Positions 208 to 60,282 of a stretch of DNA of 64,000 nt are shown here, piece by piece. Under the pieces are notes generated by a model that saw only the letters and a program-made list of their open reading frames with translations, was not told the DNA's origin and did no database searches. The stretch is from Tidjanibacter sp. (GTDB taxonomy: Bacteria; Bacteroidota; Bacteroidia; Bacteroidales; Rikenellaceae). The translations under genes were made by a program, and so were the position numbers. How positions within the stretch are numbered: the first letter of the stretch is position 1; each line of letters begins with the position of its first letter. The stretch lies in assembly GCA_017466345.1 (NCBI GenBank), contig JAFTUI010000006.1, positions 1 through 64,000 of the forward strand, read 5' to 3'.

Positions 208-330
208 AAAAACGCAGATAACGAGATAGATGCAAGGCATACGAGAAAGCGGCTCCGCAGTTTGCTTAGCGCAAATGAGGAAGCCGCTTATCGAAGTATA
301 ACGCAGCAGATGCTCGTTATATGCGTTTTT
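208..330 (-). repeat. Nested hairpin element A at the cysS 3' end
   Basis: Outer arms 208-225 and 313-330 pair over 18 bp with one mismatch. Inner arms AAGCGGCT (247-254) and AGCCGCTT (282-289) pair, and inside them TTTGC (261-265) pairs with GCAAA (271-275). The right end touches the cysS stop codon at 330-332. Read in the cysS direction the structure ends in a T run, so it could act as a transcription terminator or 3' stabiliser. Confidence 0.7.
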
Positions 331-1802
331 TACATTTGTTCCCAGGACATCGAACCGTCCTTATTATCCTTCACTCGGATACCAATCTCGGCAAGACGAT
401 TGCGGATCAGGTCGCTCGTAGCCCAATCTTTGTTGGCTTTGGCTGTGCGGCGCACCTCCAAAATCATCTCCATAAGGGGGTCCATTTGGTTGTTTGTGCT
501 ACCCTCCGACTTCTCGTTGCGAAGACCGAGAATGTCGAAAACATAGAGGTTTACAACACGTTTCAACTCCTCCAAGTCGGCAGCCGAGATGCTCTCTTTG
601 CCATCGGCAAGCGAGTTGATGATGCGCACCCAATCGAAGAGTGCGCTGATGACCATAGGCGATGAGAGGTCGTCATTCATAGCCTCCGAGCAGCGTTTTT
701 CGAGGTCGGCAACCTCCACCGAAGAGTTCTCCGAGGGCTTGATTTTCGAGAGGGTATCCACAGCCTTCATAAGTCTGTCGTAACCCTTCTCGGCTGCTTT
801 CAGTGCCTCGTTCGAGAAGTCGAGAGTCGAGCGGTAGTGCGCCTGCAAGATGAAGAAGCGCACCGTCATAGGCGAGTATGCCTGCTCCAACTTGTCGTGA
901 GTGCCACTAAAAAGCTGTTCGAGAGTAATGAAGTTACCCAGCGACTTACCCATCTTCTGACCGCCGATGGTAATCATATTGTTGTGTACCCAATAGCGTG
1001 CCGAGTCGTGCCCTACCGAGGCGCACGATTGGGCAATCTCGCACTCGTGGTGGGGGAACATAAGGTCCATACCGCCACCGTGAATATCAAACTGCTCACC
1101 GAGGTATTTGGTGCTCATTGCTGTACACTCCAAGTGCCAGCCGGGGAAGCCATCGCTCCAAGGCGAGCGCCAGCGCATAATATGTTCGGGCTGAGCCTTC
1201 TTCCAGAGTGCGAAGTCGTAGGAGTTGCGTTTGTCGCTCTGACCGTCAATCTCGCGAGTACCTACGAGCACATCATCGAGGTTGCGTCCCGAGAGTTTGC
1301 CATAGTGGAATTTCTCGTTGTACTTGGTAACATCGAAGTAGATGGAGCCGTTGCTCTCGTAGGCATAACCTGCATCGAGAATACGCTTTACGAGTTCTAT
1401 CTGTTCGATGATGTGACCGCTGGCGTGGGGCTCAATAGATGGGGGCAGAACGCCCAACTTATCCATAAAGGTGTGGTAGCGGTTGGTGTAGTACTGCGCA
1501 ACCTCCATAGGTTCGAGTTGTTCGAGCCTTGCCTTCTTTGTGATTTTATCCTCGCCCTCGTCTGCATCGTGCTCCAAGTGTCCCACATCGGTAATGTTGC
1601 GAACATAGCGCACCTTGTAGCCCAAAGCCTTCAAATAACGGAACAGAAGGTCGAAGGTAATTGCGGGGCGTGTGTGTCCCAAGTGGGGATCGCCATAGAC
1701 CGTAGGTCCGCAAACATACATACCAACGTGTTCGGGATTGAGGGGCTTAAACACCTCTTTCCTACGCGAAAGAGTGTTGTATAGCATCAACTTTGTATCC
1801 AT
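330..1802 (-). CDS. cysS: Cysteinyl-tRNA synthetase
   Basis: Charges tRNA-Cys with cysteine using ATP in the cytoplasm. The 490-residue protein is full length for the class Ia family. It shows the HIGH-type motif HLGH at 40-43, KMSKS as KMGKS at 283-287, and the zinc ligands expected for the family at C31, C226, H251 and E255. ATG start at 1802. It is divergent from the DUF2723 gene across a 93-bp spacer. The stop codon abuts nested hairpin element A, so the transcript probably ends there. Confidence 0.97.
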
Positions 1803-1828
1803 AATGTTCTCTTAATCGTTTTTTGAGG

Positions 1829-1860
1829 TTGTAAAAATACTCATTATTTTCTTAACTTTG
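1829..1860 (+). promoter_or_regulatory. Promoter for the DUF2723 gene
   Basis: Bacteroidota-type promoter: TTG at 1829-1831 and TAACTTTG at 1853-1860, separated by 21 bp. The predicted transcription start is about 25-30 bp before the ATG at 1896. Confidence 0.55.
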
Positions 1861-1895
1861 CAAAATAATTTCATCTATTAGGCTGTTATTTGACT

Positions 1896-4800
1896 ATGAA
1901 AGCATACAAAAGAATAAACAATCTGCTCGGATGGGGCGTTTTTCTCATCTCGCTGGTGGTCTATGTACTCACTGCCGAGCCATCGGCAAGTTTCTGGGAC
2001 TGCGGCGAATTTATCCCTACATCATATAAATTGGAGGTTGGACACCCCCCGGGTGCGCCTCTCTTTATGATGATTGCCAACTTCTTTACTCAGTTTGCCT
2101 TTGGCGATGTGGAGAGGGTGGCTTTTTTGGTCAATTTGATGTCGTGTGTGGCTTCGGCAGCGACCATTATGTTCCTCTTCTGGACCATCACACACATCGC
2201 ACGCCGTATGACCACCCGCCGCGAGGAGGAGCCCTCGAAGGCTAAGACCATCGCCATAATGGGCGCAGGCTTGGTGGGTGCATTGGCTTATACTTTTACC
2301 GACACATTTTGGTTCTCGGCAGTGGAGGCTGAGGTCTATGCCCTCTCGTCCCTGATGACCGCTGTGGTGGTGTGGGCTATTTTGCGTTGGGAGGATGTCG
2401 CCGACCAAAAGGGCAACGAGCGTTGGCTCGTCTTTATTGCCTATATGATGGGCTTGTCGATTGGCGTACATATCCTCAACCTGCTGACAATCCCCGCATT
2501 GGTCTTTGTCTATTACTTCCGCAAGACCGACAAAGTGACCACCAAGGGTATCATCTATTCCACCCTCATCAGTGGTGTGCTCATATTGTTCCTGAATAGT
2601 ATCGTCATCCCCTACACCACCCAGATTGGTGCGTGGTTCGACCGCGTGCTCAACTCTGTGGGTGTGCCCGTCAATGTGGGCTTTGCCATCTATGCTGTGT
2701 TGCTCTTTGTGGCTCTCGGTGTGGGTATTTGGCTCACTCAGAAGAGGGGGCTCAAACTTGCAAACCTTGCCATTACAGCCCTTACGGTAGTGCTCATTGG
2801 CTACTCGTCCTACGCTTCGGTCATCATCCGTGCTTCGGCAAATCCGCCAATGAACTCCAACGACCCCGACAACCCATATGCGCTCCTGTATCTGCTCAAC
2901 CGCGAGCAGTATGAGGCTCAACCTATTCTTTCGGGTGTGTCGTATGCAGCACCCGTGGAGGATGTCACATACCGTACCAAATACTACGTCAATGACGAGG
3001 GTAAGTATGTAGGCGAAAAGACCGTTAGTGGCTACACCTACCCCGATGAGTTCAAGATGCTCTTTCCCCGTATGTGGTCGAGCAACGAGAGGCATATTGA
3101 GGGCTACGAGTCGTGGGGACGTGTCAAAGGGCGCAGGGTGCGCTATGCGGGCGAAACATACACCGTACCCACCTTTGGCGAGAACCTCCGCTACTTCTTC
3201 GACTACCAACTCAACTTTATGTATTGGCGCTACTTCCTGTGGAACTTTGTGGGCAGGCAGAGCGACAACCAGAGTGTGGGCGAGATTACCGATGGCAACT
3301 GGCTCTCGGGCATAAAACCCATTGATGAGGCTATGCTCGGACCTCAGGATAACCTGCCCGATGAGATGGCAAAAAACAAAGGTCGCAACTGCTACTATTT
3401 CCTGCCCTTCATCTTGGGTTTGGTGGGTTTGTTGTGGCAACTCGGCAAGAACCCCCGCTACTTCACGGTGGTTATGTGGCTGTTTGTGATGATGGGTGTG
3501 GCTCTTGTGGTCTACTTCAACTCTCCCCCCGGGGAGCCTCGCGAGAGGGACTATGTCTATGCAGGCTCCTTCTATGCCTTCTCAATGTGGATAGGCTTTG
3601 GTGTGCTGGCTGTTTCGGAGTGGCTCCAAAAGGTGCTCAAAAAGAATAAGGCTGTGCCCGCGGTGGTGGCTACGGTGGTGTGCCTTTCGGTACCCACAAT
3701 CCTCGCCGCCGAGAACTGGGATGACCACGACCGCAGCGGTAGGTATGTTATGCGTGATATGGGCTACAACTATCTCTCGACCGTCTTGCCCAACTCCATA
3801 ATCATCAACTACGGCGACAACGACACCTACCCGATGTGGTACAACCAGGAGGTGGAGGGTGTGCGTCCCGATGTGAGGATTATGAACCAGAGTTACTTGG
3901 GTGGTGGCTGGTACATCGAGGAGATGAAGCAGACCTACAACGAGAGTGCTCCTGTGCCTTTCTCGTTCCCCAAGGAGAAATATATGTACGCCAACGACTA
4001 CATCTTTGTGGAGGATGTGGTGGACTATCGCGTGGATTTGAAGCAGGCGATGTCGGTCGTAAAGAGCGAAAGCCCCGCAACCAAAATCGCCTACTCGGAT
4101 GACCTAAAATTCGACTTTATGCCACAGCACAAACTCTCGCTGGCGGTAAATAAGGAGAATGTCTTAAAGGCGGGTATCGTCAAACCCGAAGACGCTCACC
4201 TCATACTCGACAGCATAGAGCTGAACATCACCAAGAGCACCCTCGAAAAGCCCGAAGTGATGATTCTTGATATGCTTGCCGAACTCGATTGGAGTCGCCC
4301 CGTCTACTTTGTGCAGCCCAACCTATTGAAAGGTATTGGCATTACCGACTATCTCCAATATGATGGCTACGCCTATCGCCTTGTGCCCATAAAGACACCT
4401 GTGGAGAGTGTTGCAGAGATGGGACGTATCGACACCGACTACCTCTATAATAATATAATGAATGTCTACCGCTATGGCAATGTGAAGGACGAGAGCGTCT
4501 ATATAGACAACTTCTCGCGCTACAACATCAACTCCACCCAAATTCGTGGAGGCTTTGCACGCCTTGCCGAGTCACTTGTGGCTGAGGGCAGGAGCGAGGA
4601 GGCTGTGGCAGTGCTCGACAGGGGCTTGGAGGAGTTGCCATTCTCGCAGGTGCCCCACGGCTACCAATCGTTCCCCTACATAGACGCCTACTATGCCGCC
4701 GGTGCACCCGACAAGGGCGATGCTTTGGCACGCGACTTTGCGAGGGATATTACGCAGAAACTCTACTACTACTTCACATTCCCCGACTCGAAACAACCCT

Positions 4801-5045
4801 TTGTGGAGAACGAGTTGGTAGATGAATTCCAATACTTGGAGCACCTTATCTACTCGGTGTTGCTGCCCCACGAACGCTACGAACTCGTCAATGAACTCGA
4901 CCGCAGTTTGGAGATTGCCGAACTCTTCTTTGGTATGACCCGCAACGAACAGGGGCAACCTGAGGCTACGGTGGCTCCTGTGAGCGACCGCACACGCGAG
5001 GAGTTCCTCCGCAGTATAGATGGCTATTTCCTCATTGAGGGGTAA
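1896..5045 (+). CDS. DUF2723 (TMEM260-like) multi-pass membrane protein
   Basis: A 1049-residue integral membrane protein. The N-terminal half has many hydrophobic segments beginning at about residue 9, and the family motif WDCGEF...VGHPPGAPL lies at about 36-58. The C-terminal 400 or so residues are soluble-looking and probably periplasmic. DUF2723 proteins resemble GT-C glycosyltransferases, and the animal relative TMEM260 is a protein O-mannosyltransferase; a role in glycosylating exported proteins is therefore plausible but not shown. ATG 1896 is preferred over an in-frame TTG at 1890. Monocistronic, ending in the shared inverted repeat at 5052. Confidence 0.88.
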   Translation: MKAYKRINNLLGWGVFLISLVVYVLTAEPSASFWDCGEFIPTSYKLEVGHPPGAPLFMMIANFFTQFAFGDVERVAFLVNLMSCVASAATIMFLFWTITHIARRMTTRREEEPSKAKTIAIMGAGLVGALAYTFTDTFWFSAVEAEVYALSSLMTAVVVWAILRWEDVADQKGNERWLVFIAYMMGLSIGVHILNLLTIPALVFVYYFRKTDKVTTKGIIYSTLISGVLILFLNSIVIPYTTQIGAWFDRVLNSVGVPVNVGFAIYAVLLFVALGVGIWLTQKRGLKLANLAITALTVVLIGYSSYASVIIRASANPPMNSNDPDNPYALLYLLNREQYEAQPILSGVSYAAPVEDVTYRTKYYVNDEGKYVGEKTVSGYTYPDEFKMLFPRMWSSNERHIEGYESWGRVKGRRVRYAGETYTVPTFGENLRYFFDYQLNFMYWRYFLWNFVGRQSDNQSVGEITDGNWLSGIKPIDEAMLGPQDNLPDEMAKNKGRNCYYFLPFILGLVGLLWQLGKNPRYFTVVMWLFVMMGVALVVYFNSPPGEPRERDYVYAGSFYAFSMWIGFGVLAVSEWLQKVLKKNKAVPAVVATVVCLSVPTILAAENWDDHDRSGRYVMRDMGYNYLSTVLPNSIIINYGDNDTYPMWYNQEVEGVRPDVRIMNQSYLGGGWYIEEMKQTYNESAPVPFSFPKEKYMYANDYIFVEDVVDYRVDLKQAMSVVKSESPATKIAYSDDLKFDFMPQHKLSLAVNKENVLKAGIVKPEDAHLILDSIELNITKSTLEKPEVMILDMLAELDWSRPVYFVQPNLLKGIGITDYLQYDGYAYRLVPIKTPVESVAEMGRIDTDYLYNNIMNVYRYGNVKDESVYIDNFSRYNINSTQIRGGFARLAESLVAEGRSEEAVAVLDRGLEELPFSQVPHGYQSFPYIDAYYAAGAPDKGDALARDFARDITQKLYYYFTFPDSKQPFVENELVDEFQYLEHLIYSVLLPHERYELVNELDRSLEIAELFFGMTRNEQGQPEATVAPVSDRTREEFLRSIDGYFLIEG

Positions 5046-5051
5046 GCCAAT

Positions 5052-5112
5052 GCACGACATATAATAGTTAGGGCTGACCAAAGCGGTCAGCCCTAACTAT
5101 TATATGTCGTGC
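5052..5112. terminator. Bidirectional terminator, 28-bp perfect inverted repeat
   Basis: Arms 5052-5079 and 5085-5112 are perfectly complementary around the 5-nt loop AAAGC. It lies between two convergent genes. The right arm contains the dusB stop codon and its last codons, so the dusB coding end is part of the stem. Confidence 0.85.
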
Positions 5113-6122: not shown

Positions 6123-6125
6123 TGT

Positions 6126-12427: not shown

Positions 12428-12536
12428 ACTCCCATTTCTCTCAGTCCTCTCATTTCTCCCATAAGCCCTATATGCCTTATATGCCCTATAAGCCTTAGGA
12501 CTATTGACGTTAGACGTTAGACGTTAGACGTTGGAC
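12428..12536. repeat. 9-mer array followed by TTGACG block, copy 2
   Basis: Positions 12428-12497 are diverged 9-mers (CTCATTTCT, CCCATAAGC, CCTATATGC). Positions 12498-12536 are the TAGGACTATTGACG block with four 7-bp units. Together with 12337-12358 and element B this fills the 400-bp gap between nfnA and the DUF1573 gene. Confidence 0.75.
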
Positions 12537-12545
12537 CAAAACCCC

Positions 12546-12669
12546 AGCGAGTGCATATCGTGAGGCGAGTTCAAGGCTTGGTTTTGATTTTGCTCGCAGT
12601 TTACTCTGCGTAAATGAGGAAGCAAAATCAAAAGCATAACGCAGAAATCGCCCACGAGATGTGCTCGCT
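12546..12669 (-). repeat. Nested hairpin element B at the DUF1573 3' end
   Basis: Outer arms 12546-12568 and 12648-12669 pair imperfectly. Inner arms TTTTGATTTTGCT (12582-12594) and AGCAAAATCAAAA (12621-12633) pair perfectly. The core CGCAGTTTAC...GTAAATGAGG is the family core, but the arms differ from every other copy. The right end overlaps the first base of the DUF1573 stop codon. Confidence 0.7.
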
Positions 12670-13409
12670 CAATTCTCGACTCTCACTGCACTCGTGCGAA
12701 ACAACTCCTCCGAAGGCTTACCATCTATCACAAACCGAAACTCGTCAATAATCAATTCGGGGCTCTCGGCTGTGGGAGCGTAGGTAAGCGTTAGCAAAGC
12801 CTTCTCGCCTGCCGCAAGGTCCACGGGGAGGTTTATTTCGAGCACTCCGCTACTCTTTTCCCACTCCACATCGAGCACTACACTCTGCTCGGAGGTGTTG
12901 GCGAGTGCTATGGTCATACTCTTGGTCTTGCCCACTGCCACCTTGCCAAAGGGTTTGAAGCTCGAATCGCTCCTCACTCCGCCTCCCAACTCGTAGGGGT
13001 AGCTATCCTCCACCGAGCGTGGGCGTGCTTTCACACGACCTTTTATATAGAGCGTTGTGCGCCCTTCGCCATTGTTGTAGACTATTGTTATGCTCTTAGC
13101 AATCCTTCCTCCCCTCTCCGTAGGGTCGAACACCACCGTAAATTCGCCCTCGCCACCAGCTTTGAGCGGTCGGCGCGAGTACTCGCCCGTGGTGCAACCA
13201 CACGAGGAATAAACCCTCTCGATGGTCACAAAGTCGTCTGAGGTGTTGCGGTAGTGGAATGTGTGGCTAACCTTTCCGTCCTCCTCATTGATGGTACCAA
13301 AGTCCCATTCGGTCTGCTCAAAGAGGAGCACCGCCCCCGCAGTAGGCTCTTGGGCAAAGAGCCCCACGCAAGCCATCACTGCCACCAACAAAAAAGATAC
13401 ACCACGCAT
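12669..13409 (-). CDS. DUF1573 secreted protein
   Basis: A 246-residue exported protein with a signal peptide (MRGVSFLLVAVMACVGLFAQ). The DUF1573 domain shows the hallmark YSSCGCTTGEY (about residues 69-79) after the WDFGTI motif, in an immunoglobulin-like beta fold; a second similar half follows (FGKVAVGKTKSMTIALANTS). These proteins are abundant in Bacteroidota and their role is unknown. Start chosen at ATG 13409 because the signal peptide begins there; the extension to 13445 would precede the promoter. Confidence 0.85.
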   Translation of the reverse strand: MRGVSFLLVAVMACVGLFAQEPTAGAVLLFEQTEWDFGTINEEDGKVSHTFHYRNTSDDFVTIERVYSSCGCTTGEYSRRPLKAGGEGEFTVVFDPTERGGRIAKSITIVYNNGEGRTTLYIKGRVKARPRSVEDSYPYELGGGVRSDSSFKPFGKVAVGKTKSMTIALANTSEQSVVLDVEWEKSSGVLEINLPVDLAAGEKALLTLTYAPTAESPELIIDEFRFVIDGKPSEELFRTSAVRVEN

Positions 13410-14283: not shown

Positions 14284-17200
14284 CTATTGCAACATAACAT
14301 ACTCGCCACACTTGTGCATATAGCCAGCCTTACCATCCAAGAGGATAGCCGCATAGCCGTTCTCGAAGGTGGTTATGAGGTCGAACGTGGGCTCGCGCAG
14401 CACCTTACCCGAAGCATCAACAAGTCCTCTCTTGCCATTTATCAGTATGGCTGCCACGCCTTCCGTAAATTCGGAGACTGCATCGTAGATACAGGGTGCA
14501 ATAGGCATACCATCCGAGCCCACAAAGCCCCACTTACCATCGTGGCGCACCGCAAAGCGTCCCTCGCCAATGGGACGCACCCTCTCGTAGAGGCAAGGCA
14601 CAATCTCATCGCCGCTACTATTGACTGCACCGTAGCGGCCCGCACGCACCACAACCGAATAGCCCCTATCGAACGACTCGGCAAGGTCGTAGCGCACAAC
14701 AAAAGCGGTTCTGCCTGCGGGGTTGACAAACTCCATATTATCGCGGTGGATAACTCTCGCCAAGCCCCCCTTGAAGGGCTCCACCGCGGCATAGCGAGGC
14801 TCTATAACCTCCCTACCCGACAAATCAATAAAGCCCCATCTACTATCGACCTGCACCGCAGCGTAGCCCTCGGAGAAGTCGCCAATGGAGGTATATTTAC
14901 ACGAGGTTACAACCTCGCCCGTAGGGCTTACCACGCCATAGCGTCCCTTATAACCCACAACGACACAGCCTGTCTCAGGAAGAGGCTCGCCACGGTAGTC
15001 GTAGAGGCAGTTGCCACGTTGGTCGATGTAGTATGCCACACCATTGAGTGTTGCATAAGCCAGTCCGCCCTCGAAACTTGCAGCTCTGTCGAAGCGTGGA
15101 GATATGGCATAATCGCCAGCGGTATTGATATAGCCCCACTTACCACTCTCGGTCTTAACAGCTGCCACACCCTGCGAAAAACTCTCAACTTCGCTAAAAG
15201 ATGCAGGAATAATCATCTGTCCATCGCCGCTGAGGAAGCCCCACTGTCCGCGTAGTTTCACTGCCGCTCTGCCATCGCTGAAACTCTTTGCCTGCTCGAA
15301 GCGGCAAGCCACAACTTCGCGTCCCTGTTCATCTATAAAGCCATAGCGACCATTATATACCACCATCGCCATCTCCTCAACAAAAGGCTCTATGTGGTCG
15401 TACTTGCAGGGGGTTATCTCCTTGCCACTACCGCCTATCACGCCCCATTTATCGCCCGACATCACCATAGCAACATCGTGCGAGCCAAAGCCCGTAGTGC
15501 TGTCGTAGCAACAATCGACCACAACACTACCGACATCGTCTACAAAGCCCCACTTGACGCCCTTGCGCACAGCGTGGAGAGCCATACCTTCGCGGTAGTC
15601 CACCTCGTCCCACTGAGGAGCAATGATGACATTGCCATCAGCACCCATAATGCCGACCTGCTCGTCACTCGTGATGACATAATAGCCATTGGAGCCACCC
15701 TTGCCCTCGACATACTCAATAGAGTCGTAGGTCAGAGCCCTATTCTGAGCCACATCGACAATCGTGGTACCTATGATAATCCTGCCACTACCCTCCTCGG
15801 CAATGTGAGCAGGCATAACCATCCTATACTCTTCGTCCATAACGCCCCACTTGTCGTCTATCCTAACCCAAGCATAGCCATTATTGAAGACGGGCATCAG
15901 GTCGAGCGTGGGTTCTACCTTAACTCTGCCATCGCGGGTGATAACGCCCCAGCCTCCTTGCCACTCATACCACATCTCCTCTCTCTCGCCAAAGTCGGGA
16001 CGCTCCGAGAAGGTTGCATCGCACACAATCTCGCCATTGCGGCTCACAACACCCCAGCGATTGTTCCACCTGATCCAAGTGGTTTGTTCGCCTTCGGCAA
16101 AGTGTGGTTCGTGTGCGAGCATTGGGCGTAGTACGATGGTACCCTCGCGCGAGATGACGCCCCACTTACCACTCCATAGGCCCCAAGCAAGTCCCTCTTG
16201 GTTAAACTCTGGTCTATTTTGCAAGAAGGGATTGAGCAACACCTCTCCATTGCGGCTTACGATACCCCAAGCGCCATTCCAACAAGCCCAGCAACTGTCT
16301 TGTCCCTCAGAGAAGGTGGGACGTTCCAAGAGCATTGCCGAAAGTACAACCTCGCCATCGCGACTTACAACACCCCATTGGTCGTTCCACATAACCCAGC
16401 CCCTGCCGGTATCCTCATCAAAGAGTGGGCGCAAGGCAAGTATGGCATCGAAAATGATGCGACCATTGGGGGCTATTGCTCCCCATTTACCATTCCATTC
16501 CACCCACAAGATGTTGCTCTCATCGAAAACAGGGCACTCCGACAAGCGTGCATCGAAGATAACCTTACCCTCGCGAGTGATTGAGCCCCATTTGCCATTC
16601 CACTCCACCCAAGCATAGCTATCTCGGTTGAAGAGAGGTTTCGTATCCACAGCCACCTCAGAGAGTATCTCGCCAATCCTATTAACTGCTATCCACTTAC
16701 CTCTGCGTTCTGCCCACGCAACGCCATTCTTATCGAATAGAGGTTCCGAGCCGAGCGAGGCTTCGAGAAGCACCTCGCCAGCGTGGTTTACCACACCCCA
16801 CAGCGAGTTCCACTTAACCCACGCAACGCCTTGTTCATCGAACAGTGGTTCGTGCTCCACCACAGCATCAAACACAACCTTTCCCTCTTTGGCAATGGCG
16901 CCCCAGCGGTTGTTCCAACGCACCCAAGCCACGCCATCCTCGCCGAAGAGAGGCTGTTGTTCGACAACGAAGTCGAAAGCCACCGAGCCATCAATCCTAA
17001 TTGCGCCCCAGCACAATCCATTGCGCAGCCAAGCCACACCCTGCTCATCGAAGAGCGGCTTTTCGTCCAGAACAGCATCAAAGACCACCTCGCCCTTGCG
17101 CGAGAGTGCTCCCCAACGACCATTCCAGCGTGCCCACGCCACACCACCATCGAACATAGGGTAGTTATCCAACACCGGCTCAAAAACAATCTCGCCAACT

Positions 17201-18006
17201 GAGGATACAACACCCCAACCTCCCGACCAGCGTGCCCAAGCGACACCCTCCGAAAAGTCGTCCATCTGTTCTATGATAGGCTCGAATATGATTTGTCCTC
17301 TGTAATTGATAGCACCCCATCCATTGTTCCAGCGTGTCCAGCACACATCATTGAAGAATGTGGGGCGAGCAAAGAGCACAGGCTCAAAGAGAATATCTCC
17401 ATCGGGAGTTATGGCACCCCAACCACCGCCCCAATGAGCCCAGCAGACGCCATCGTCAAACTTTGGAGCATCGTAGAGCGCATAGTCGAAGAGCACCTCG
17501 CCGCTTTGGCTGATGAGTCCCCAGCGTTCCTCCTTCTCGATCCACGCCCTACCCTCCTCGAAGGTTGCGGGCGCACGAAACTGAGGTGCGAAAACCTCAT
17601 TGCCATTGCAGTCTATAAGGCCCCATCGGCTCTCCTTCTTAACCCACGCAAGGCGGTCTACAAAGGGGGTTATCGAGTCGTACTGAGGCTCGAAAAGATA
17701 TTCGGCATTGCGGCGGAGAACACCCCACTGCGCCCCATACTTAACTCTTGCAAGAGAGTCCTCGAAGGGCTCCACTGCCGAGAAAATCGTCTTAATGACC
17801 GTCTTACCCTTAGAGTCGGCATAGCCCCACTCCCCTCTGCGCTGAACGGGTACAAGCCTTCCTTCGAGATTTTTACCTTTCAGAGGGCGCAGGATGTGCG
17901 ATTGTGCCTCCGCATTGAGCGTGGCACATAGGAGCACAACAAAAGCCACCATCCCCACTCTGAGGATGTTGGCACATCTATTCACAAGGCTTCTTTCTCT
18001 CTTCAT
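14284..18006 (-). CDS. Giant exported WG-repeat protein
   Basis: 1240 residues. A signal peptide ends near residue 35 (LNAEAQS). The remainder is about 34 WG-containing repeats, each with the pattern W-G-[VAF]-[IV]-x5-G-x-[VI]-[IVL]-x-[EDP]. Repeats in the first two thirds are spaced about 43 residues apart and carry an extra VAWxRWN segment before the WG. Those in the last third resemble the ordinary KWGFI..G..VI..Y form. A few have lost the W (GVAYYID, GKRGLVD). WG repeats are thought to fold as beta-propeller or beta-solenoid scaffolds; the ligand is unknown. A weak -7 box (TAATTTTG) lies at 18040-18033. Confidence 0.88.
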
Positions 18007-24927: not shown

Positions 24928-24941
24928 AAATTAAGGGTTCC

Positions 24942-25075
24942 TATGCCTTATATGCCTTATATGCCTTATATGCCTTATATGCCTTATATGCCTTATATGC
25001 CTTATATGCCCTATATGCCTTAGGACTATTGACGTTAGACGTTAGACGTTAGACGTTAGACATTAGACGCTCGAC
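24942..25075. repeat. 9-mer array (ATGCCTTAT) and TTGACG block, copy 3
   Basis: Positions 24942-25019 are about eight near-perfect 9-mers. Positions 25020-25075 are TAGGACTATTGACG plus six 7-bp units with slight decay at the end. The module sits directly upstream of a promoter. Confidence 0.9.
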
Positions 25076-27041: not shown

Positions 27042-27167
27042 GTCTAACGTCAAAAGTCCAACGTCTAACGTCTCAGGCTCAGTTCTCCCATATCTCCCAT
27101 AACTCCTATACGCCCTATAAGCCCTATAAGCCTTAGGACTCTTGACGTTAGACGTTAGACGTTAGAC
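27042..27167. repeat. Inverted TTGACG blocks around a 9-mer array, copy 4
   Basis: GTCTAACGTC-type units at 27042-27075 are the reverse complement of the units at 27143-27167, and CCCATATCT/CCTATAAGC 9-mers lie between. This is the only copy where the block occurs on both sides of the array, giving a long potential stem. Confidence 0.8.
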
Positions 27168-29893: not shown

Positions 29894-30000
29894 ATTTATG
29901 TGAGGGGTTTTCAAGGCTTGCGCAGCGCGAGAAAGCGGAGTTTACAAAAGTAAATGAGCATTTCGAGCGCAAGCGTAACACAGAAAACACCCACAGAAAT
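29894..30000 (-). repeat. Nested hairpin element, first of a tandem pair (C1)
   Basis: Outer arms 29894-29912 and 29983-30000 pair imperfectly (GGTTTTC with GAAAACA). The centre has AGTTTAC-AAAA-GTAAATGAG, a decayed version of the family core. A stretch at 29836-29864 (GTGGGTTTTGTGGAGGAAAT and on) repeats the outer arm of the next copy. Confidence 0.6.
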
Positions 30001-30023
30001 CAGCCGCCACAAGGCACACTTGG

Positions 30024-30148
30024 GCGAGTGGGATTTGTGGAGGAAATTTTGTGCCAAACAAGAAGGCGAGTCCGCAGTTTGCTCTTCGCAAATGAGGAAC
30101 TCGCCTATCGAAGTGCGGTGCAAAATTTACCCACAAGGCACACTCGCT
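30024..30148 (-). repeat. Nested hairpin element at the glpR 3' end (C2)
   Basis: Outer arms 30024-30055 and 30118-30148 pair imperfectly; inner arms AGGCGAGT (30064-30071) and ACTCGCCT (30099-30106) pair perfectly; the centre is CCGCAGTTTGC-TCTT-CGCAAATGAGG. The right end is one base from the glpR stop codon at 30150. Confidence 0.75.
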
Positions 30149-30149
30149 A

Positions 30150-30914
30150 CTATTTGGCGATGATAAGTGTAATACCCATATCCTCCAATCGGCTGGCAAC
30201 CTTTGTGGGAATACCCTCATCGGTAATGATAATATCCACCTCGTCCATATCGCAAATTTTGCTAAAACCCCTGCGGTGGAACTTGGATGAGTCGGCAAGT
30301 ACTATGACTTTCTGGGCAACCTTCATCATCTCGCGATTGAGGTCTGCCTCCCTGAGGTCGGTGGTCGTGATACCATAATCGAGGTCTATACCATCCACAC
30401 CAATGAAGAGTTTGCTACAACAGAAGTTGGGCAGGATGCTCTCGGCATACTTACCCACCACAGAGTTACTACTATGGCGCAAAGTGCCACCCAGCTGTAT
30501 AATATCTACCGCCTCTTGGGATGCCAAAATCTCCGACACGACTATTGAGGCAGATATGACGGTGAGTTTGTGTATGGGTTTGATGCTACGCGCCAGTGCG
30601 TGCATTGTCGTACCTGAGGCTATGATGATGGAGTCATCGCGCGTGATCATTGCTGCGGCAGCCTGACCAATACGCATCTTCTCCTCTATGGCGAGTTTTT
30701 CTTTCTCATTCACCGAGCGGTTGTTGATGTAAGGGTTGATGAGGATGGCCTTACCGTGACTGCGGTAGAGTTTGCTTTCGTGTTCGAGTTCGTTAAGGTC
30801 CTTACGAATCGTAACTGCCGACACATCGAGCAGTGCGGAGAGCTCTGCCACACCTATCGATTCCCTCTTTTTCAACTCTGCAATGATGATTTCGTGCCTC
30901 TCTTCTCTGGTCAT
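30150..30914 (-). CDS. glpR: DeoR-family repressor, likely GlpR
   Basis: 254 residues: N-terminal DeoR helix-turn-helix (REERHEIIIAELKKRESIGVAELSALLDVSAVTIRKDLNELE) and the C-terminal sugar-phosphate isomerase-like effector domain with IASGTTMHALAR, LGGTLR and GVDGIDLDYG. Divergent from the glp operon with 167 bp between start codons. In E. coli GlpR is released by glycerol 3-phosphate; the same role here is inferred from position. Bacteroidota-type promoter: TATATTTG at 30963-30956 and TTG at 30987-30985 on the minus strand. Confidence 0.9.
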   Translation of the reverse strand: MTREERHEIIIAELKKRESIGVAELSALLDVSAVTIRKDLNELEHESKLYRSHGKAILINPYINNRSVNEKEKLAIEEKMRIGQAAAAMITRDDSIIIASGTTMHALARSIKPIHKLTVISASIVVSEILASQEAVDIIQLGGTLRHSSNSVVGKYAESILPNFCCSKLFIGVDGIDLDYGITTTDLREADLNREMMKVAQKVIVLADSSKFHRRGFSKICDMDEVDIIITDEGIPTKVASRLEDMGITLIIAK

Positions 30915-43766: not shown

Positions 43767-43869
43767 AATTGAGAGTTGAGAGTTTTAGTTTTAGAGTTTT
43801 CGAGCAACCGCAAGTTGGTCAATTGAAAGCAGGGCGTTACCTTAATGCCCTTGCGATAATAGTTTTAGA

Positions 43870-44116
43870 TGCAAAAAGCAAAAGAACGGAGGGATTTTTG
43901 TGCCAAAAGAGAGAGCGAGTCCGCACAACGCAAAAAAGCAAAAGAACGGAGGGATTTTTGTGCCAAAAGAGAGAGCGGACTCCAAACAAACAACGCAAAA
44001 AGCAAAAGAGAAGAGGAATTTCAAGGCTTGCGAAGAAGGCGGCTCCGCAGTCAACGCAAAAAGCAAAAGAATGGAGGGCTTTTTGTGCCAAACGAGGGAG
44101 CGAGTCCGCACAACGC
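43870..44116. repeat. Tandem 60-bp units related to the tig 3' end
   Basis: Four units starting near 43871, 43930, 43994 and 44055, each beginning with CGCAAAAAGCAAAA (the second has one extra A). They come in two types: GGA-rich units ending AGTCCGCACAACG and units with GGCTTGCGAAGAAGGCGGCT. Their start matches the sense sequence of the tig end (AAAAAGCAAAATAG). The open frame through the block is repeat-derived and not called. Fills the 458-bp gap between tig and the FAD gene. Confidence 0.8.
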
Positions 44117-44238
44117 AAAAAGCAAAATAGAAGAGGAATTTCAAGGCTTGCGAAGAAGGCGGCTCCGCAGTTTGCTCGGCGCAAATGAGGAAGCCGCCTT
44201 CAAGCGTAACGAAGAAATTACCTTCTATTTTGCTTTTT
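44117..44238 (-). repeat. Nested hairpin element at the tig 3' end (D)
   Basis: Outer arms 44117-44133 and 44222-44238 are a perfect 17-bp inverted repeat, and the right arm lies inside the tig coding end (stop at 44225). Inner arms AAGGCGGCT and AGCCGCCTT flank the core CCGCAGTTTGC-TCGG-CGCAAATGAGG. Confidence 0.8.
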
Positions 44239-54534: not shown

Positions 54535-54555
54535 TCGAAGAACTCAACAAAAAGG

Positions 54556-54591
54556 AAAAACGACTGTCGGGCAACCGATGGTCGTTTTTTT
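54556..54591 (+). terminator. rplU-rpmA terminator
   Basis: Stem 54556-54570 with 54575-54589 (AAAAACGAC ... GTCGTTTTT with two wobble pairs inside) around GCAA, followed by a T run. Confidence 0.88.
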
Positions 54592-54605
54592 GTGCTCTGC
54601 TTTTT

Positions 54606-54715
54606 GGGAGTTATGGGAGTTATGGGAGTTATGGGAATCATCCTATAAGCCCTATATGCCCTATATGCCCTATATGCCTTAGGACTCTTATACGTTAAAC
54701 TGCGCCTTTGGCGCA
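54606..54715. repeat. 9-mer arrays, degenerate TTGACG block and short hairpin
   Basis: Three copies of GGGAGTTAT (54606-54632) are followed by CCTATATGC-type 9-mers, then CCTTAGGACTCTTATACG (a decayed block), then TGCGCC-TTT-GGCGCA (54701-54715), a 6-bp hairpin that recurs as TGCGCC-TAT-GGCGCA at 60924. Confidence 0.75.
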
Positions 54716-54723
54716 ATACAATT

Positions 54724-54766
54724 TTCATTGTCAATTTTCAATTTTCAATTTTCGATTGTATCTTTG
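54724..54766 (+). promoter_or_regulatory. lysS promoter with AATTTTC tract
   Basis: TATCTTTG at 54759-54766, preceded by four AATTTTC-type units. Same TTTCGATTGTATCTTTGTG as the tkt promoter. Confidence 0.5.
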
Positions 54767-54814
54767 TGGGTTAATTGGGAAAATATCGAACAAAAATAAA
54801 TAGAGAGAAACAAT

Positions 54815-56539
54815 ATGAGTAACCTCAACCTTTCCGAACAGGAGATTCAGCGTAGGGCTTCGTTGCAGGCACTGCGCGACTTGGGTATCGACCCCTACCC
54901 TGCTGCGCGTTATGACGTAACCGCTACCGCAGGGCAGATAGCAGCAGAGTTCGATGCCGAAAAGGGCAACTTTGCCGACATCACCATCGCAGGTCGTCTG
55001 ATGAGCCGCCGTATTATGGGTAGCGCATCGTTCTTCGAGTTGCAGGACCACACCGGTCGCATTCAGGTCTACATCCGCCGCGATGATGTATGCCCCGAAG
55101 GCGACACCACACTCTACAACACCGTATTCAAAAAACTGCTCGACATAGGCGACATCATCGGTGTGCGCGGCTTTGCGTTCATCACCCAGACGGGCGAACT
55201 CTCCGTACACTGCAAGGAGTTCACACTCCTCTCGAAGAGCATCCGTCCTCTGCCCATCGTAAAGGAGAAAGATGGTCAGGTGTTTGACGCCTTCACCGAC
55301 CCCGAGCAGAGATACCGCCAGAGGTACGTTGACCTCATCGTAAACCCCCACGTTAAGGAGGTTTTTGTCAAGAGGGCAAAGATTATGAACACTATGAGGG
55401 AGTACTTCAACGAGGCAGGTTGCTTGGAGGTTGACACACCCGTATTGCAGCCCATCCCCGGTGGTGCTGCGGCACGTCCCTTCATCACGCACCACAACTC
55501 CTTGGACACAGACCTCTACTTGCGTATCGCCAATGAGCTCTACTTGAAGAGGCTCATCGTGGGTGGTTTCAATGGTGTCTATGAGTTCTCGCGCAACTTC
55601 CGCAACGAGGGTATGGACCGCACCCACAACCCCGAGTTTACCTGTATGGAGATCTATGTCCCCTATAAGGACTACTTCTGGATGATGGAGTTCACGGAGA
55701 AGATGTTGGAGAAAGTTTGCGTGGCTGTAAACGGCACCAATGAGGTCAACATTGCAGGCAATACCATCTCCTTCAAGGCTCCCTTCCGCCGGCTTTCGAT
55801 GACCGAGGCTATTAAGGAGAAGACGGGTTACGACATCACAGGGCAGAGCGAGGAGCAACTCCGCGAGGCTTGCGTAAGGCTGAACGTGGAGATTGACGAC
55901 ACGATGGGTAAGGGTAAACTGATTGACGCCATCTTCGGCACCTACTGCGAGGAGCATCTCATTCAGCCCACCTTCATTACGGACTACCCCATCGAGATGT
56001 CGCCCCTTTGCAAGCGTCACCGCAGCAACCACGACCTCACGGAGCGTTTTGAACTCTTTGTGAACGGCAAAGAGTTGTGTAATGCCTACTCGGAGCTGAA
56101 CGACCCCATCGACCAATACGAGCGTTTTCAGGAGCAGTTGCGCCTCTCGGAGAAAGGCGATGATGAGGCAATGTTCATCGATATGGACTTTGTGAGGGCT
56201 TTGGAGTACGGTATGCCTACCTGCTCGGGTATGGGTATCGGCATCGACCGCCTTACGATGTTTATGACGGGACAGCAGACCATTCAGGATGTGCTTCTCT
56301 TCCCCCAGATGAAACCCGAAAAAGGCAGCCAGAAAGACTCGGACGAGAAATACTTGGAGAAAGGTATTCCCGCAGAGTGGATTCCCGTATTGCAGAAGAT
56401 GAGTTTCGTGAAGGTTGAGATGTTGCAGAAACTCTCCGCCGGCAAACTCTTCAACGACTTGTGTGGCTTCAACAAGAAGAACAAACTCGGCTTGAAGAAC
56501 CCCACAATGGACGAGGTGAAAGGCTGGATTAGCGAATAA
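54815..56539 (+). CDS. lysS: Lysyl-tRNA synthetase, class II
   Basis: 574 residues, longer than E. coli LysS (about 505) because of a C-terminal extension of about 70 residues (from about [17 protein letters not shown]) seen in Bacteroidota. N-terminal OB-fold anticodon domain ([14 protein letters not shown]), motif 2 [18 protein letters not shown] and motif 3 GMGIGIDRL. Followed by tpiA after 38 bp. Confidence 0.96.
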
Positions 56540-56577
56540 TTCAAAATTCAAAATTCAAAATTGATATACAATTAATT

Positions 56578-57330
56578 ATGCGTAAACAGATTGTAGCGGG
56601 TAACTGGAAGATGAATACCACCCCCGCAGAAGGTTTAGAGTTAGTTAAAAACGTAATCGCACAGAGCGCAGAGGTGCGCGAGGACGTAAACTTCATCGTT
56701 TGCCCTCCCTTTACCCACCTCTCGCAGGTTGCTGAGGCTGCCAAAGGTAGCCGCGTGAAGGTTGGCGCACAGAACTGCGCTGCCGAGGCTAAGGGTGCCT
56801 ACACCGGCGAGGTTAGTGCCGCTATGCTCTCTTCGCTCGGCATTGAGTATGTTATTCTTGGTCACAGCGAGCGCCGCGAGTACTATGGCGAGACCAGCGA
56901 AACCCTCAACAAGAAGATGGCTCAGGCTTACGCCAACGGTCTTACCCCCATCTACTGCGTGGGCGAGCGTTTGGAAGAGCGTGAGGCAGAGCGCCACTTC
57001 GAGGTTGTGAAGGCTCAGATTGAGGAGGTTGTTTTCAACCTCACTCCCGAGCAGTTCGCAAAGCTCGTTATCGCTTATGAGCCCGTTTGGGCTATCGGCA
57101 CCGGCAAGACCGCTACTGCCGAGCAGGCAGAGGAGATTCACGCCTACATCCGCAGCGTCTTGGCTGAGAAATTCGGTGCAGCAGCAGCCGAGACCGCTAT
57201 CCTCTATGGTGGCTCGTGCAAACCCAGCAATGCCGAGGAGATTTTCGCCAAAGAGAACGTGGACGGTGGTCTTATTGGTGGTGCAGCCCTCAAAGCCGAG
57301 GACTTCATCGCCATCGGCAAAGGCTTCTAA
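56578..57330 (+). CDS. tpiA: Triose-phosphate isomerase
   Basis: Interconverts dihydroxyacetone phosphate and glyceraldehyde 3-phosphate. 250 residues. GNWKMN at 8-13 (K11), catalytic histidine in LGHSERR, catalytic glutamate in [14 protein letters not shown], and phosphate loop YGGS. The product of the GlpABC reaction enters glycolysis here. Spacers on both sides carry AAAATTC repeats. Confidence 0.97.
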
Positions 57331-57354
57331 TTTTGAATTCAAAATTCAAAATTG

Positions 57355-57384
57355 AGGTGCGCTCCTTTGGGGCGCACCTTTTTT
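57355..57384 (+). terminator. tpiA terminator
   Basis: AGGTGCGCTCC (57355-57365) and GGGGCGCACCT (57369-57379) pair with one G-T wobble around TTT, followed by TTTTT. Confidence 0.9.
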
Positions 57385-57436
57385 ATAAACATCTTTCTCT
57401 CCCCTTTCGTAGGGTATAAACTTATTTTTATTTAGG

Positions 57437-57515
57437 GGGAGAGTTCCCATATCTCCCATAAGGCTTATAAGCCCTATATGCCCTATACGAACACGGGTAT
57501 TAAAAAAGATACCCG
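57437..57515. repeat. 9-mers and the GGGTATC-family core, copy 3
   Basis: CCCATATCT and CCTATATGC-type units run from about 57447 to 57488. At 57494-57515 CGGGTAT-TAAAAAAG-ATACCCG is the exact core of the hairpins at 13833 and 39714 in the other orientation, so it keeps the same orientation to its upstream gene (tpiA). The long outer arms are missing. Confidence 0.7.
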
Positions 57516-57617
57516 AGAACAAAGGGGGGTGCCTTTTTAAGGTTGAGAGCGGTAGATGCCAACCGCCTGCCTACGGCAGTCGTGGCAAGACGGATAAGGC
57601 AACCCTCCACTGCACAA

Positions 57618-57634
57618 ACTGACAAAATGTCAGT
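57618..57634. promoter_or_regulatory. Perfect palindrome upstream of htpG
   Basis: ACTGACAAAATGTCAGT: 7-bp arms around AAA. It lies 10 bp before the sigma-54-like site and 75 bp before the htpG start codon. It is not a CIRCE element. Probably a binding site for a stress regulator (inference). Confidence 0.55.
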
Positions 57635-57644
57635 CCACTCTGCG

Positions 57645-57660
57645 TGGCATACTGTTTGCT
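57645..57660 (+). promoter_or_regulatory. Sigma-54-like promoter of htpG
   Basis: TGGCATACTGTTTGCT fits TGGCAY-N5-TTGCW with the invariant GG and GC 10 bp apart. It is 48 bp before the ATG at 57709. No TAnnTTTG box at normal spacing was found. Confidence 0.6.
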
Positions 57661-57708
57661 CCTCGTAGTGCCAAAACGAACTAAAAAAACACAAAAAAAT
57701 ATACAACT

Positions 57709-59769
57709 ATGAAAAACGGAACTATCGGAGTAACAACAGAGAACATCTTTCCTGTAATCAAGAAATTCCTCTACTCGGACCACGAGATTTTCTTGCGCGA
57801 GATTGTAGCCAACGCTGTGGATGCCTCGCAGAAGATGCGCACCATAGCCGCCAGCGGAGCCTACGAGGGCGAACTCGGCGAGTTGAGGGTGCGTGTGGCA
57901 GTAGATGCGGAGGCAAAGACCATCACCGTAAGCGACAATGGCGTAGGTATGACAGCCGAGGAGGTCGATCGCTACATCAACCAGATAGCTTTCTCGTCTG
58001 CCGAGGAGTTTATGGCAAAGTACAAGGACCAAGCCATCATCGGTCACTTCGGTTTGGGTTTCTACTCGGCATTTATGGTCAGCCGCAAGGTGGAGATTCG
58101 CACCCAGAGCTACCACGCCGAGGAGCCTACAATGCTCTGGTCGTGTGACGGCACGCCCGAGTACACCCTCACAGAGAGCGACACCAAGCGCGAGAGGGGT
58201 ACGGATATTATTATGTACCTCGCCGATGACGCCACCGAGTTTGCCGACCAGAGCCGCATACGCGAGATGCTCCGCAAGTATTGTCGTTTCTTGCCCGTAG
58301 AGATTGTCTGCGGCAAGCACCAAGAGTGGAAGAACGGCAAGTACGAGGACACCGACCGCGACTATGTCATCAACGACACCGACCCCCTCTGGACCCGCAA
58401 GCCCACCGAGATTACCGAGGAGCAATACAAGGAGTTCTATGCAGAGTTGTACCCCACTGCCGAGGATCCTCTATTCAGCATCCATCTGAACATCGACTAC
58501 CCCTTCAACCTTACGGGTATTCTCTACTTCCCCAAGATTCGCAACAACTTCGAGGTGCAGAAAAACCGCATTCAGCTCTACTGCAACCAGGTATTTGTAA
58601 CCGACTCGGTGGAGGGTATCGTGCCCGAGTATCTCACTCTGTTGCACGGCGTTATAGACTCGCCCGACATTCCTCTGAACGTATCGCGCAGTTACTTGCA
58701 GAGCGACAGCAACGTGAAGAAAATCTCCTCCTACATCACCCGCAAGGTGGGCGACAGGTTGCAGGAACTTTTCAATACTATGCGACCTGAGTTCGAGAGC
58801 AAGTGGGACGATTTGAGGATTTTCATCGAGTATGGCATCGTTACGGACGAGAAGTTTGCCGAGAAAGCCAAAGGTTTCACGCTGCTGAAAAACAGCGAGG
58901 GTAAGTACTTCACTCCCGAAGAGTACCGCACCCTCACAGCCGACAACCAAACCGACAAGAACGGCAACCTCGTATGGCTCTACACCGACTCGGTGGAGGA
59001 CAAATATGCCTTCGTGGAGGGTGCAAAAGCCAAGGGCTACGATGTACTCATTATGGACGGACCGCTGGATGGTCACTTCATAAACTACTTCGAGAGCAAG
59101 AACGAGAAGACACGCTTTGTGAGGGTTGACTCCAACGTCATCGACAAACTCATCGAGAAAGAGAACAACCTCTCCATAGCCCTCACAACCTCGCAGCAGG
59201 AGTTACTGCGCCCCGTCTTCGAGAGTCAGCTGCCTGTGGAGGATAAGATTCACTACAACATCTCCTTCGAGGCTATGGCAAGCGATGAGGACCCCGTAAC
59301 CATCACCCGCGATGAGTTTATGCGCCGTATGAAGGAGATGGCACAAGTGAGTGGTGGCGGTATGAGTCAGTTCTACGCCCAGATGCCCGACAGCTACACC
59401 ATAGCCATCAACGGCAACCACCCCTTGGTGGCAGAGATTTTGGGCGATGTAGAGCGTGAGTGTGGCGAGAAGGTAGCCTCTGCCGACAAGAAGATTGAGA
59501 GCCTCGAAAACCAACTCTCCTCGCTGGAAACACTCATCAAAGATAAGAAAGCCGAGGAACTCAGTGACGAGGAGCGTACACAAAAGAGCGATTTGGAAAA
59601 CAAAATTGCCGAACGCCGCCAACAGCGCACCGACCTGCTACGCGAGGAGGGTAAGAAGAACATTCTCGTTAAGCAACTCATAGACCTTGCGCTGCTCTCG
59701 AACGGAATGCTCAAAGGCGAGAGCCTTGCAGCCTTCATCCGCCGCAGCGTAAAACTGATACATAAATAA
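57709..59769 (+). CDS. htpG: Molecular chaperone HtpG (Hsp90)
   Basis: 686 residues. GHKL ATPase motifs: LREIVANAVDASQK, SDNGVGM and GHFGLGFYSAFMV. Middle and C-terminal dimerisation domains follow. Residues about 590-650 are a highly charged predicted coiled coil (KKIESLENQLSSLETLIKDKK and on) before the last helices; this insertion is absent from E. coli HtpG, which is about 624 residues. Regulation appears to differ from neighbours, with a sigma-54-like site and palindrome upstream. Confidence 0.96.
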   Translation: MKNGTIGVTTENIFPVIKKFLYSDHEIFLREIVANAVDASQKMRTIAASGAYEGELGELRVRVAVDAEAKTITVSDNGVGMTAEEVDRYINQIAFSSAEEFMAKYKDQAIIGHFGLGFYSAFMVSRKVEIRTQSYHAEEPTMLWSCDGTPEYTLTESDTKRERGTDIIMYLADDATEFADQSRIREMLRKYCRFLPVEIVCGKHQEWKNGKYEDTDRDYVINDTDPLWTRKPTEITEEQYKEFYAELYPTAEDPLFSIHLNIDYPFNLTGILYFPKIRNNFEVQKNRIQLYCNQVFVTDSVEGIVPEYLTLLHGVIDSPDIPLNVSRSYLQSDSNVKKISSYITRKVGDRLQELFNTMRPEFESKWDDLRIFIEYGIVTDEKFAEKAKGFTLLKNSEGKYFTPEEYRTLTADNQTDKNGNLVWLYTDSVEDKYAFVEGAKAKGYDVLIMDGPLDGHFINYFESKNEKTRFVRVDSNVIDKLIEKENNLSIALTTSQQELLRPVFESQLPVEDKIHYNISFEAMASDEDPVTITRDEFMRRMKEMAQVSGGGMSQFYAQMPDSYTIAINGNHPLVAEILGDVERECGEKVASADKKIESLENQLSSLETLIKDKKAEELSDEERTQKSDLENKIAERRQQRTDLLREEGKKNILVKQLIDLALLSNGMLKGESLAAFIRRSVKLIHK

Positions 59770-59808
59770 AAATTTAGGACTTCCGAAAGCGGAAGCCCTA
59801 AATTTTTG
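59768..59808 (+). terminator. htpG terminator
   Basis: AAAATTTAGG-A-CTTCC and GGAAG-C-CCTAAATTTT form a long stem with one internal mismatch around a short loop, ending in a T tract. It starts right after the htpG stop codon. Confidence 0.85.
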
Positions 59809-59883
59809 CCGACCACGGACAAACGACACACCCCCGCGCTCCGCACCTAACTTTGGGGAGGGTGCAAGGGTTGCAGGGATAAC

Positions 59884-60023
59884 AGGGTATTAAGGACGTT
59901 AAGGACGTTAAGGTCATTAAAGCCATTAAAGCCATTAAACTCCTTAAATTCCCATAAGCCCTATATGCCTTATAAGCCATATAAGCCTTAGGACTATTGA
60001 CGTTGGACGTTAGACGTTAGACC
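59884..60023. repeat. 9-mer array and TTGACG block, copy 6
   Basis: AGGACGTTA, AAGCCATTA and CCTTATAAG-type 9-mers shade into one another without losing the 9-bp register, then TAGGACTATTGACGTTGGACG and two 7-bp units. A clear example of several 9-mer types fused into one array. Confidence 0.8.
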
Positions 60024-60032
60024 AAAATTCCC

Positions 60033-60154
60033 AGCGAGTGGGTTTTGTGGAGGAAATTTTGTGCCAAACAAGAAGGCGAGTCCGCAGTTTACTAAACGTA
60101 AATGAGGAACTCGCCTTTCGCAGTGCGGTGCAAAATTTACCCACAAGGCACACT
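60033..60154 (-). repeat. Nested hairpin element, first of a tandem pair (E1)
   Basis: Outer arms 60033-60065 and 60128-60154 share GGAAATTTTGTGCC / GGTGCAAAATTT pairing. Inner arms AAGGCGAGT (60073-60081) and ACTCGCCTT (60109-60117) flank CCGCAGTTTAC-TAAAC-GTAAATGAGG. Nearly the same as the element before glpR. Confidence 0.75.
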
Positions 60155-60155
60155 T

Positions 60156-60282
60156 GGGCGAGTGGGTTTTGTGAGGCGAGTAGTAGGCGCAAAAGAAAAC
60201 CACCTTCGTAGTTTACTTAACGTAAATGAGAAGGTGGTTTATCGCAGTGCAACGACCTAATCGCCCACAAAACACGCTCGCT
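60156..60282 (-). repeat. Nested hairpin element at the recR 3' end (E2)
   Basis: Outer arms 60156-60179 and 60261-60282 pair imperfectly. Inner arms AAACCACCTT (60197-60206) and AAGGTGGTTT (60231-60240) pair perfectly and are unlike those of E1. Core CGTAGTTTAC-TTAAC-GTAAATGAG. The right end runs into the recR stop codon (60281-60283). Confidence 0.75.

Follow-up and report, generated by a model that had tools for sequence, protein, structure and literature searches.

Enterobacterial repetitive intergenic consensus sequences (ERIC; IRU, RU-1; MITEEc1, MITEPlu5) are nested imperfect palindromes of 127 bp (123 bp in Photorhabdus). They have been described as repeats of the Enterobacteriaceae and Vibrionaceae (PMC10969869). 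ERIC begins with TATAC, the published order in Escherichia coli is CTGCGTT...TCA-C-TTAC...GTAA-G-CT...GCCTTG, and fusion with an ERIC appears to have removed the stop codon of one Erwinia gene and lengthened another (PMC2759123). In Yersinia, ERICs at the 3′ ends of genes are reported to lower the upstream transcript via an RNase E site (PMC2229807 and PMC10969869), and the ends of GTAG repetitive extragenic palindromic (REP) sequences often supply a TAG stop codon (PMC3733652). Here, we describe an ERIC-like palindromic element of about 125 bp in a 64,000-nt stretch of DNA from Tidjanibacter sp. (Rikenellaceae; assembly GCA_017466345.1, contig JAFTUI010000006.1, positions 1 to 64,000; hereafter the window), whose genome comprises 1.82 Mb in 30 contigs. 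Copies of this genus, and most proteobacterial ones that were examined, stand at gene stops in one orientation. The same core also occurs in some other Bacteroidota, there as a repeat that is dispersed, shows target duplications, and has no fixed link to stops. On balance, we lean toward a family of ERIC-like, non-autonomous mobile palindromes that dock at stop codons and become the 3′ structure of the gene. A repeat of the ERIC type is already known; the variability of the arms, stop docking as a rule, and the mostly Bacteroidota hosts set this variant apart from it.

Position and Orientation Relative to Stop Codons

All five gene-end copies listed in a preliminary description of the window are present (Table 1), where they adjoin or overlap the stop codons of cysS, a DUF1573 protein gene, a DeoR/GlpR-type regulator gene, tig, and recR. 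Two further copies had been placed in tandem with them; the one at 60033 is indeed a full copy, and the core of the other, at 29894, is degenerate. The shared orientation of the five copies to their genes extends to the whole genome. An exact core pattern has 83 matches there (reversed control pattern, 0), and a looser pattern finds 85 copies in 41 stretches (774,454 bases with some overlap, leaving out copies closer than 100 nt to a contig end, contig C30 with two exact copies, and the first copy of C29). Of these 85 copies, 80 have a gene stop, always to the same side of the core, and five have none there. The distance to this stop is 46–54 nt in 52 copies, 30–45 nt in six, 55–72 nt in nine, 100–200 nt in nine (mostly tandem ones), and more than 200 nt in four. 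On the opposite side there are 44 facing stops, the closest at 77 nt and none within 72 nt. A random placement relative to stops, which the preliminary description had named as fatal to a functional reading, is therefore not what the genome contains. Most copies start inside the stop codon or at most 2 nt from it. Under a uniform docking rule (a frame no shorter than 100 aa that ends 30–75 nt before the core, applied to copies with 400 nt on both sides), 55 of 70 copies in the window genome are docked and three lie on the other side.

Element ends of the AAA type are the commonest kind, and there the third base of the stop codon appears to be supplied by the element: the stop is TAA at all 25 such ends, compared with 25 of 38 control ends at which AAA follows the gene (Fisher 0.0008). 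Orthologues in genome G017, of which 0.8 of 1.8 Mb were covered, were available for 39 of 67 docked genes, 38 of them readable. No element was present at 35 of these 38 within the 137 nt inspected for each, and the other three have an element of their own. Compared by eye, the C-terminal length of the docked genes is the same as in G017 in 20 of 38 cases, at most one residue off in 32, and at most three off in 36; for control genes without an element it is the same in 104 of 178. The match of docked C-termini to G017 indicates that the stops are old. Outside this phylum, the lptG copy of Pseudoalteromonas is absent at 29 of 29 other loci (167 nt inspected; 39 other genomes searched).

Clustering of copies by strand was noticed within contigs of the window genome. 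Seven contigs have an edge within about 420 nt of a copy (starts of C12, C13, C17, C19, C22, and C29; end of C5), so that the repeat probably interrupts the assembly, and the real number of copies may be larger.

Structure, Covariation, and Exchange of the Arms

Read in the sense of the gene from the outside to the tip, the element consists of the stop codon, an outer arm, an NCGTT box, an inner arm, TCCTCA, TTTRC, and a loop, followed by GYAAA, CTGCGG, the returning inner arm, a GCCTNG box, and the returning outer arm; many copies of the window genome carry other self-complementary modules in place of the outer boxes. The two boxes (NCGTT/GCCTNG and TCCTCA/CTGCGG) and the small apical stem are constant, and the paired arms vary freely. 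For the five copies at gene ends and the full tandem copy (60033), folding energies range from −43 to −54 kcal/mol (z −4.0 to −7.6), no shuffled sequence folding as strongly as any of the six, and the RNA of the element is predicted to fold strongly.

The earlier claim that inner arms differ among copies while each matches its own partner perfectly holds for most copies and is slightly overstated: 8–9 of 9 bases pair in 64 of the 85 copies, and at most five in nine of them. In each third of the arms (inner, middle, and outer), those of one copy fit each other better than arms from other copies do. In a cross-phylum alignment of 35 sequences, all eight inner-arm pairs vary with both sides changed. 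Scored on a structure derived from these same 35 sequences, the alignment has 108 double-change cells, where shuffles average 30.4 (none of 500 as high), and a covariation score of 0.537 against 0.07–0.17 when slid; two cruder measures do not rise above the shuffles (pairs with any double change, 9 vs. 8.0; further pair types, 22 vs. 25.9). A single-side arm change was counted once. As the preliminary description expected, the arms thus mostly stay complementary when they change, the exceptions being the nine poorly paired copies and one broken copy.

The same description proposed selection on a folded RNA or DNA, or a copying process that rebuilds palindromes. This proposal withstood both conditions that were to refute it, and selection on RNA is weakly supported. 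In the 68 copies that keep 7 or more of the 9 inner pairs, 39 cells are non-Watson–Crick, of which three are G-U in the transcribed strand, where about one-sixth would be expected from random single changes; this scarcity favors a DNA palindrome or a copying process over selection on RNA. A T-tract follows the far arm in 24 of 58 docked copies, and 20 of these also have an A-tract at the stop and may be two-way terminators.

Exchange between copies can be followed in G013 and G018, two genomes of the genus that are 94–96% identical over the two regions compared. At one locus (L332/L339), the outer arm and the stop are shared and the whole inner hairpin differs on both sides, the pattern expected if a conversion tract covers the center; L306/L347 shows a similar picture. 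At L308/L340, only one half has been replaced, with the change at the core, and the G013 arms have lost their complementarity; at L325/L337, a truncated copy corresponds to a full one. Of the ten G013/G018 pairs compared, most of the others are alike in both genomes. Exchange of tips would explain the surviving complementarity, and the half exchange shows the outcome when such an exchange fails.

Comparison With ERIC and Other Known Systems

The statement that no named element has this layout was too strong, since ERICs lie at most 6 nt from a stop at four of seven loci and GTAG REP termini are reported stop suppliers. These seven distinct loci, from 10 records of E. coli, Klebsiella, and Pantoea, served as a yardstick: ERICs after ybhI, hsdR, and potI (three of the seven) lie 1, 4, and 6 nt past the stop in the same orientation as the Tidjanibacter element, the ones close to psuT and rpnC are 54 and about 89 nt past it, and those near lpdA/aceF and mbtH have the opposite orientation. 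In the Yersinia work of De Gregorio in 2005, stop-adjacent ERICs reportedly prefer one orientation, and stop adjacency with a preferred orientation is likewise found for the Tidjanibacter element.

The element resembles ERIC in its nested imperfect palindrome of nearly equal length, in the boxes CTGCGTT and GCCTTG, and in the TCA-YTTRC...GYAAR-CT core, all at near-equal spacing. A joint box motif with ERIC spacing, composed after both sequences were known, has one match in the published ERIC and 94 in the collected loci, 75 of them with a complete core; 11.3 Mb of shuffled sequence has none. The element differs from ERIC in arms that change copy by copy, in its inner-loop bases, in its hosts, which were found mostly among the Bacteroidota, and in that no TA duplication was found; stop docking is the rule for the element and one mode among others for ERIC. 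With its TATAC start, a fused ERIC appears to have cost one Erwinia gene its stop and lengthened another, whereas the ends of the element appear to supply a stop. We hold that the element works like ERIC and may share descent with it. We do not file it as ERIC because profiles fail across the two, no TA duplication was found, and no IS630-type transposase exceeded the cut-off. Rfam gave no match to the element in the window at gathering scores and none in seven element loci at E 0.1. No paper was recognized as describing the element among the literature matches listed, judged from titles and the beginnings of abstracts. As a side observation, the E. coli ERIC at L473 2505–2628 scores 48 bits with RF02818 ("Vibrio RNA AS5"; E 9e-8; gathering score 96), so that this antisense RNA family may be ERIC-related.

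Likeness to other systems is more limited. REP sequences, with their REP-associated tyrosine transposases (RAYTs), are also intergenic palindromes; they differ in being 20–40 bp long, tagged with a tetranucleotide, and often accompanied by a Y1 transposase. An intrinsic terminator likewise places a hairpin right after the stop, and A- and T-tracts occur in one subclass of copies; the element differs in its length of about 125 nt with conserved boxes. Integron attC sites, too, stand at gene ends in one orientation and have free stems together with unpaired bases that are conserved. This likeness is one of layout only, and the host genes of the element are core genes (cysS, recR, tig).

Occurrence in Other Genomes

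Docking by the uniform rule recurs elsewhere: 32 of 40 copies are docked in G013 (one on the other side), 10 of 11 in G018 (one), 19 of 24 in other relatives of the clade (none), 15 of 21 in Proteobacteria (four), and 4 of 8 in a mixed set of other Bacteroidota (one). Among the remaining loci of a wider set of 116 stretches, 44 of 69 are docked (seven on the other side), 27 of 41 (three) among stretches with a record title and 17 of 28 (four) among untitled ones. The compared sets are related and partly overlap, the 116-stretch set sharing species with some of the genomes, and the proteobacterial loci L370 and L388 were placed in their genome by likeness. Named by eye, docked genes outside the genus look like ftsZ in Zetaproteobacteria, ndk in Kangiella, lptG in Pseudoalteromonas, and panC in a metagenome-assembled genome of Bacteroidetes. 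The exact core occurs in 5 of 369 gammaproteobacterial genomes, one of them the seed genome, and is thus sporadic in that class; the core pattern has no match in viral_contigs.

Exact copies number 80 in Bacteroidales GMC8 (G061), 41 in a Cytophagales genome (G062), and 18 in a Flavobacteriales genome (G066). Counted without a shuffled control, direct repeats of 8–9 bp lie 48–50 nt from the core on both sides at 10 of 21 places in G061 (2 of the 21 at contig edges), and repeats of 5–7 bp lie near the ends of 6 of 18 copies in G066. The copies in these two genomes have no tie to stops: 4 of 22 and 0 of 17, respectively, are docked. The same core thus seems to occur with different ends and different duplication lengths. 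The preliminary description had set a functional element against an ordinary mobile palindrome, an opposition that falls away where the same core is elsewhere a repeat with target duplications.

Two kinds of related structure were observed in passing. Variant-core elements that the exact pattern misses stand at the cysS stop outside the 13-genome clade (L231, L232, L236). Stop-centered palindromes whose downstream arm is the reverse complement of the last codons of the gene occur at L032 (minus strand near 2562) and at L243 and L245 (recR of G019 and G010).

Proposed Mechanism and Alternative Explanations

Under the favored explanation of docking mobile palindromes, copies would enter at or just before the TA or TG of a stop codon and supply a stop, so that the host gene would be hardly harmed. 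Transcripts would then end in the element, folded as a long hairpin, and those copies that have A- and T-tracts would probably serve as a two-way intrinsic terminator. Later, copies might swap hairpin tips by gene conversion, which would replace both arms at once and keep complementarity.

Several results weigh against this explanation. The signs of movement, namely target duplications, come from other Bacteroidota and not from the genus Tidjanibacter, and no pair of filled and empty sites was found at strain-level divergence. A TA duplication at the far end, a trait of ERIC, was seen in 5 of 42 cases in the window genome against a background of 5.6%, and a TA-duplicating insertion was rejected on this count. 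No mobilizing enzyme was found. The window genome has no match to Y1_Tnp, the enzyme that a RAYT origin would demand, and none of 24 genomes of the genus has a match over the cut-off of DDE_3, which an IS630-type miniature inverted-repeat transposable element would call for; three weaker matches fall in G004, G007, and G016, all of them genomes without the exact core. Element ends of the CGA type have TAG stops at 10 of 11 sites compared with 11 of 15 control ends followed by CGA (Fisher 0.36); this association is no different from the control, and only that of the AAA type counts. Relative to G017, 11 of the 38 docked genes are shorter by one codon and one is longer by one, compared with 17 one longer and 17 one shorter in G017 among the 178 controls. 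The element thus seems to have taken over the stop one codon early in part of the cases, and docking is not always exactly on the old stop. With regard to kinship with ERIC, the rpnC-side ERIC lies 4 nt from the panC stop in the opposite orientation (one of seven loci), the family model R1 scores 6.1 bits (E 3.9) at the E. coli ERIC of L473, below unrelated places there, and Rfam RF02818 matches ERIC (E 9.3e-8, under the gathering score) and none of seven element loci at E 0.1.

An unlikely alternative is that the element is a 3′-end RNA element of the host, a terminator or mRNA stabilizer that is selected right after stops in the sense orientation, spreads by gene conversion, and has its mobile past behind it. 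The sense orientation and narrow spacing in several lineages, the strong folding, the conserved boxes with free stems, and the loci common to G013 and G018 at about 95% identity would all suit such an element. It sits poorly with the near absence of G-U pairs from the arms, as RNA should tolerate wobble, with a T-tract in only 24 of 58 copies, with the 35 of 38 readable G017 orthologues that lack it, and with the dispersed repeats that carry the same core in G061 and G066. Those dispersed copies, which have intact target duplications and are not tied to stops, speak instead for random mobile insertion without stop preference, after which only sense copies abutting stops would last long; the lack of a TA duplication at docked copies fits this as well. 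Nevertheless, a spread of a few nucleotides (52 of 80 same-side stops at 46–54 nt) and the third-base association of AAA-type ends are hard to obtain by filtering, and we regard random insertion as improbable.

Two further explanations address the precision at the stop. Insertion into the loop of existing stop-centered palindromes, the locus-specific outer arms being old terminator stems, would account for the few outer arms that reach the coding end: at least five matched bases continue into it in 4 of 60 copies compared with 0.6% with swapped flanks, and by eye the outer arm of copy 4 takes in the tig stop and at least the last three codons. Stop-centered palindromes do exist in some relatives (recR), but perfect stop-centered stems of at least 7 are rare, being found at 7 of 486 element-free gene ends, and were rejected as targets for that reason, and inspection of the G017 orthologues by eye showed no trace of the arm sequences; this route is very unlikely. 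Insertion by reverse transcription at stop codons where an A-site nuclease has cut the mRNA would explain both the sense orientation and the precision, and the window genome has one RVT_1 gene. This idea is largely refuted and scarcely credible because 6 of 12 genomes, including the carriers G070, G071, and G406, have no RVT_1 match (several of the 12 being incomplete), unless the enzyme was lost after the copies arose.

Returning to stop docking of ERIC-like mobile elements, a broader version, which we offer only tentatively and hold to be doubtful, is that the two-box core is an independent, ancient selfish module common to ERIC-like elements across phyla. It would ride on transposon ends of several kinds (with 8-bp, about 5-bp, and perhaps TA duplications) and in some lineages enter stops in the sense orientation through a stop-sensing step, for example one coupled to transcript ends or to translating ribosomes.

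As a relative or look-alike of ERIC in Bacteroidota and in other Proteobacteria, the element offers many natural experiments in which varying arms around fixed boxes show the bases that matter. Narrow docking with a stop supplied by the element is a clean case of a nearly harmless landing site and raises the question of how a DNA element finds a stop codon. Through it, dozens of housekeeping genes of gut bacteria have also acquired altered 3′ ends.

Features of the Window

Table 1. Copies of the element in the window, with their host stop codons or neighboring copies.
Feature	Positions	Strand	Description
Copy 1	208..332	minus	cysS stop codon (330-332) to far arm; core 255-281
Copy 2	12546..12671	minus	Stop TGA of DUF1573 gene, 12669-12671; core from 12594
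Copy 3	30024..30152	minus	Stop TAG of DeoR/GlpR-type regulator gene, 30150-30152; core 30072-30098
Copy 4	44112..44238	minus	Stop TAG of tig, 44225-44227; core 44165-44191
Copy 5	60156..60283	minus	Stop TAG of recR, 60281-60283; core from 60206
Full tandem copy	60034..60154	minus	Downstream of copy 5 at 124-nt spacing; core 60082-60108
Degenerate tandem copy	29894..30010	minus	Downstream of copy 3; read by eye
Partial copy	133..215	minus	One half with truncated core, downstream of copy 1; approximate limits
Tandem partial copies	43866..44111	minus	Repeat the outer arm downstream of copy 4; repeat families D10 and D13

Other repeats are also present in the window. Intergenic arrays of 9-bp units, such as TGCCTTATA, ACCCTTGTA, and AGATATGAG, were observed at 12430–12499, 24937–25024, 27077–27146, 54623–54692, 59932–59992, and other positions. 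These arrays often adjoin a GACGTTAGACGTTAGAC tail, and the same tail follows many elements and some ordinary terminators. The region 14284–18006 encodes a WG-repeat protein of 1240 aa (PF14903, 10 stretches).

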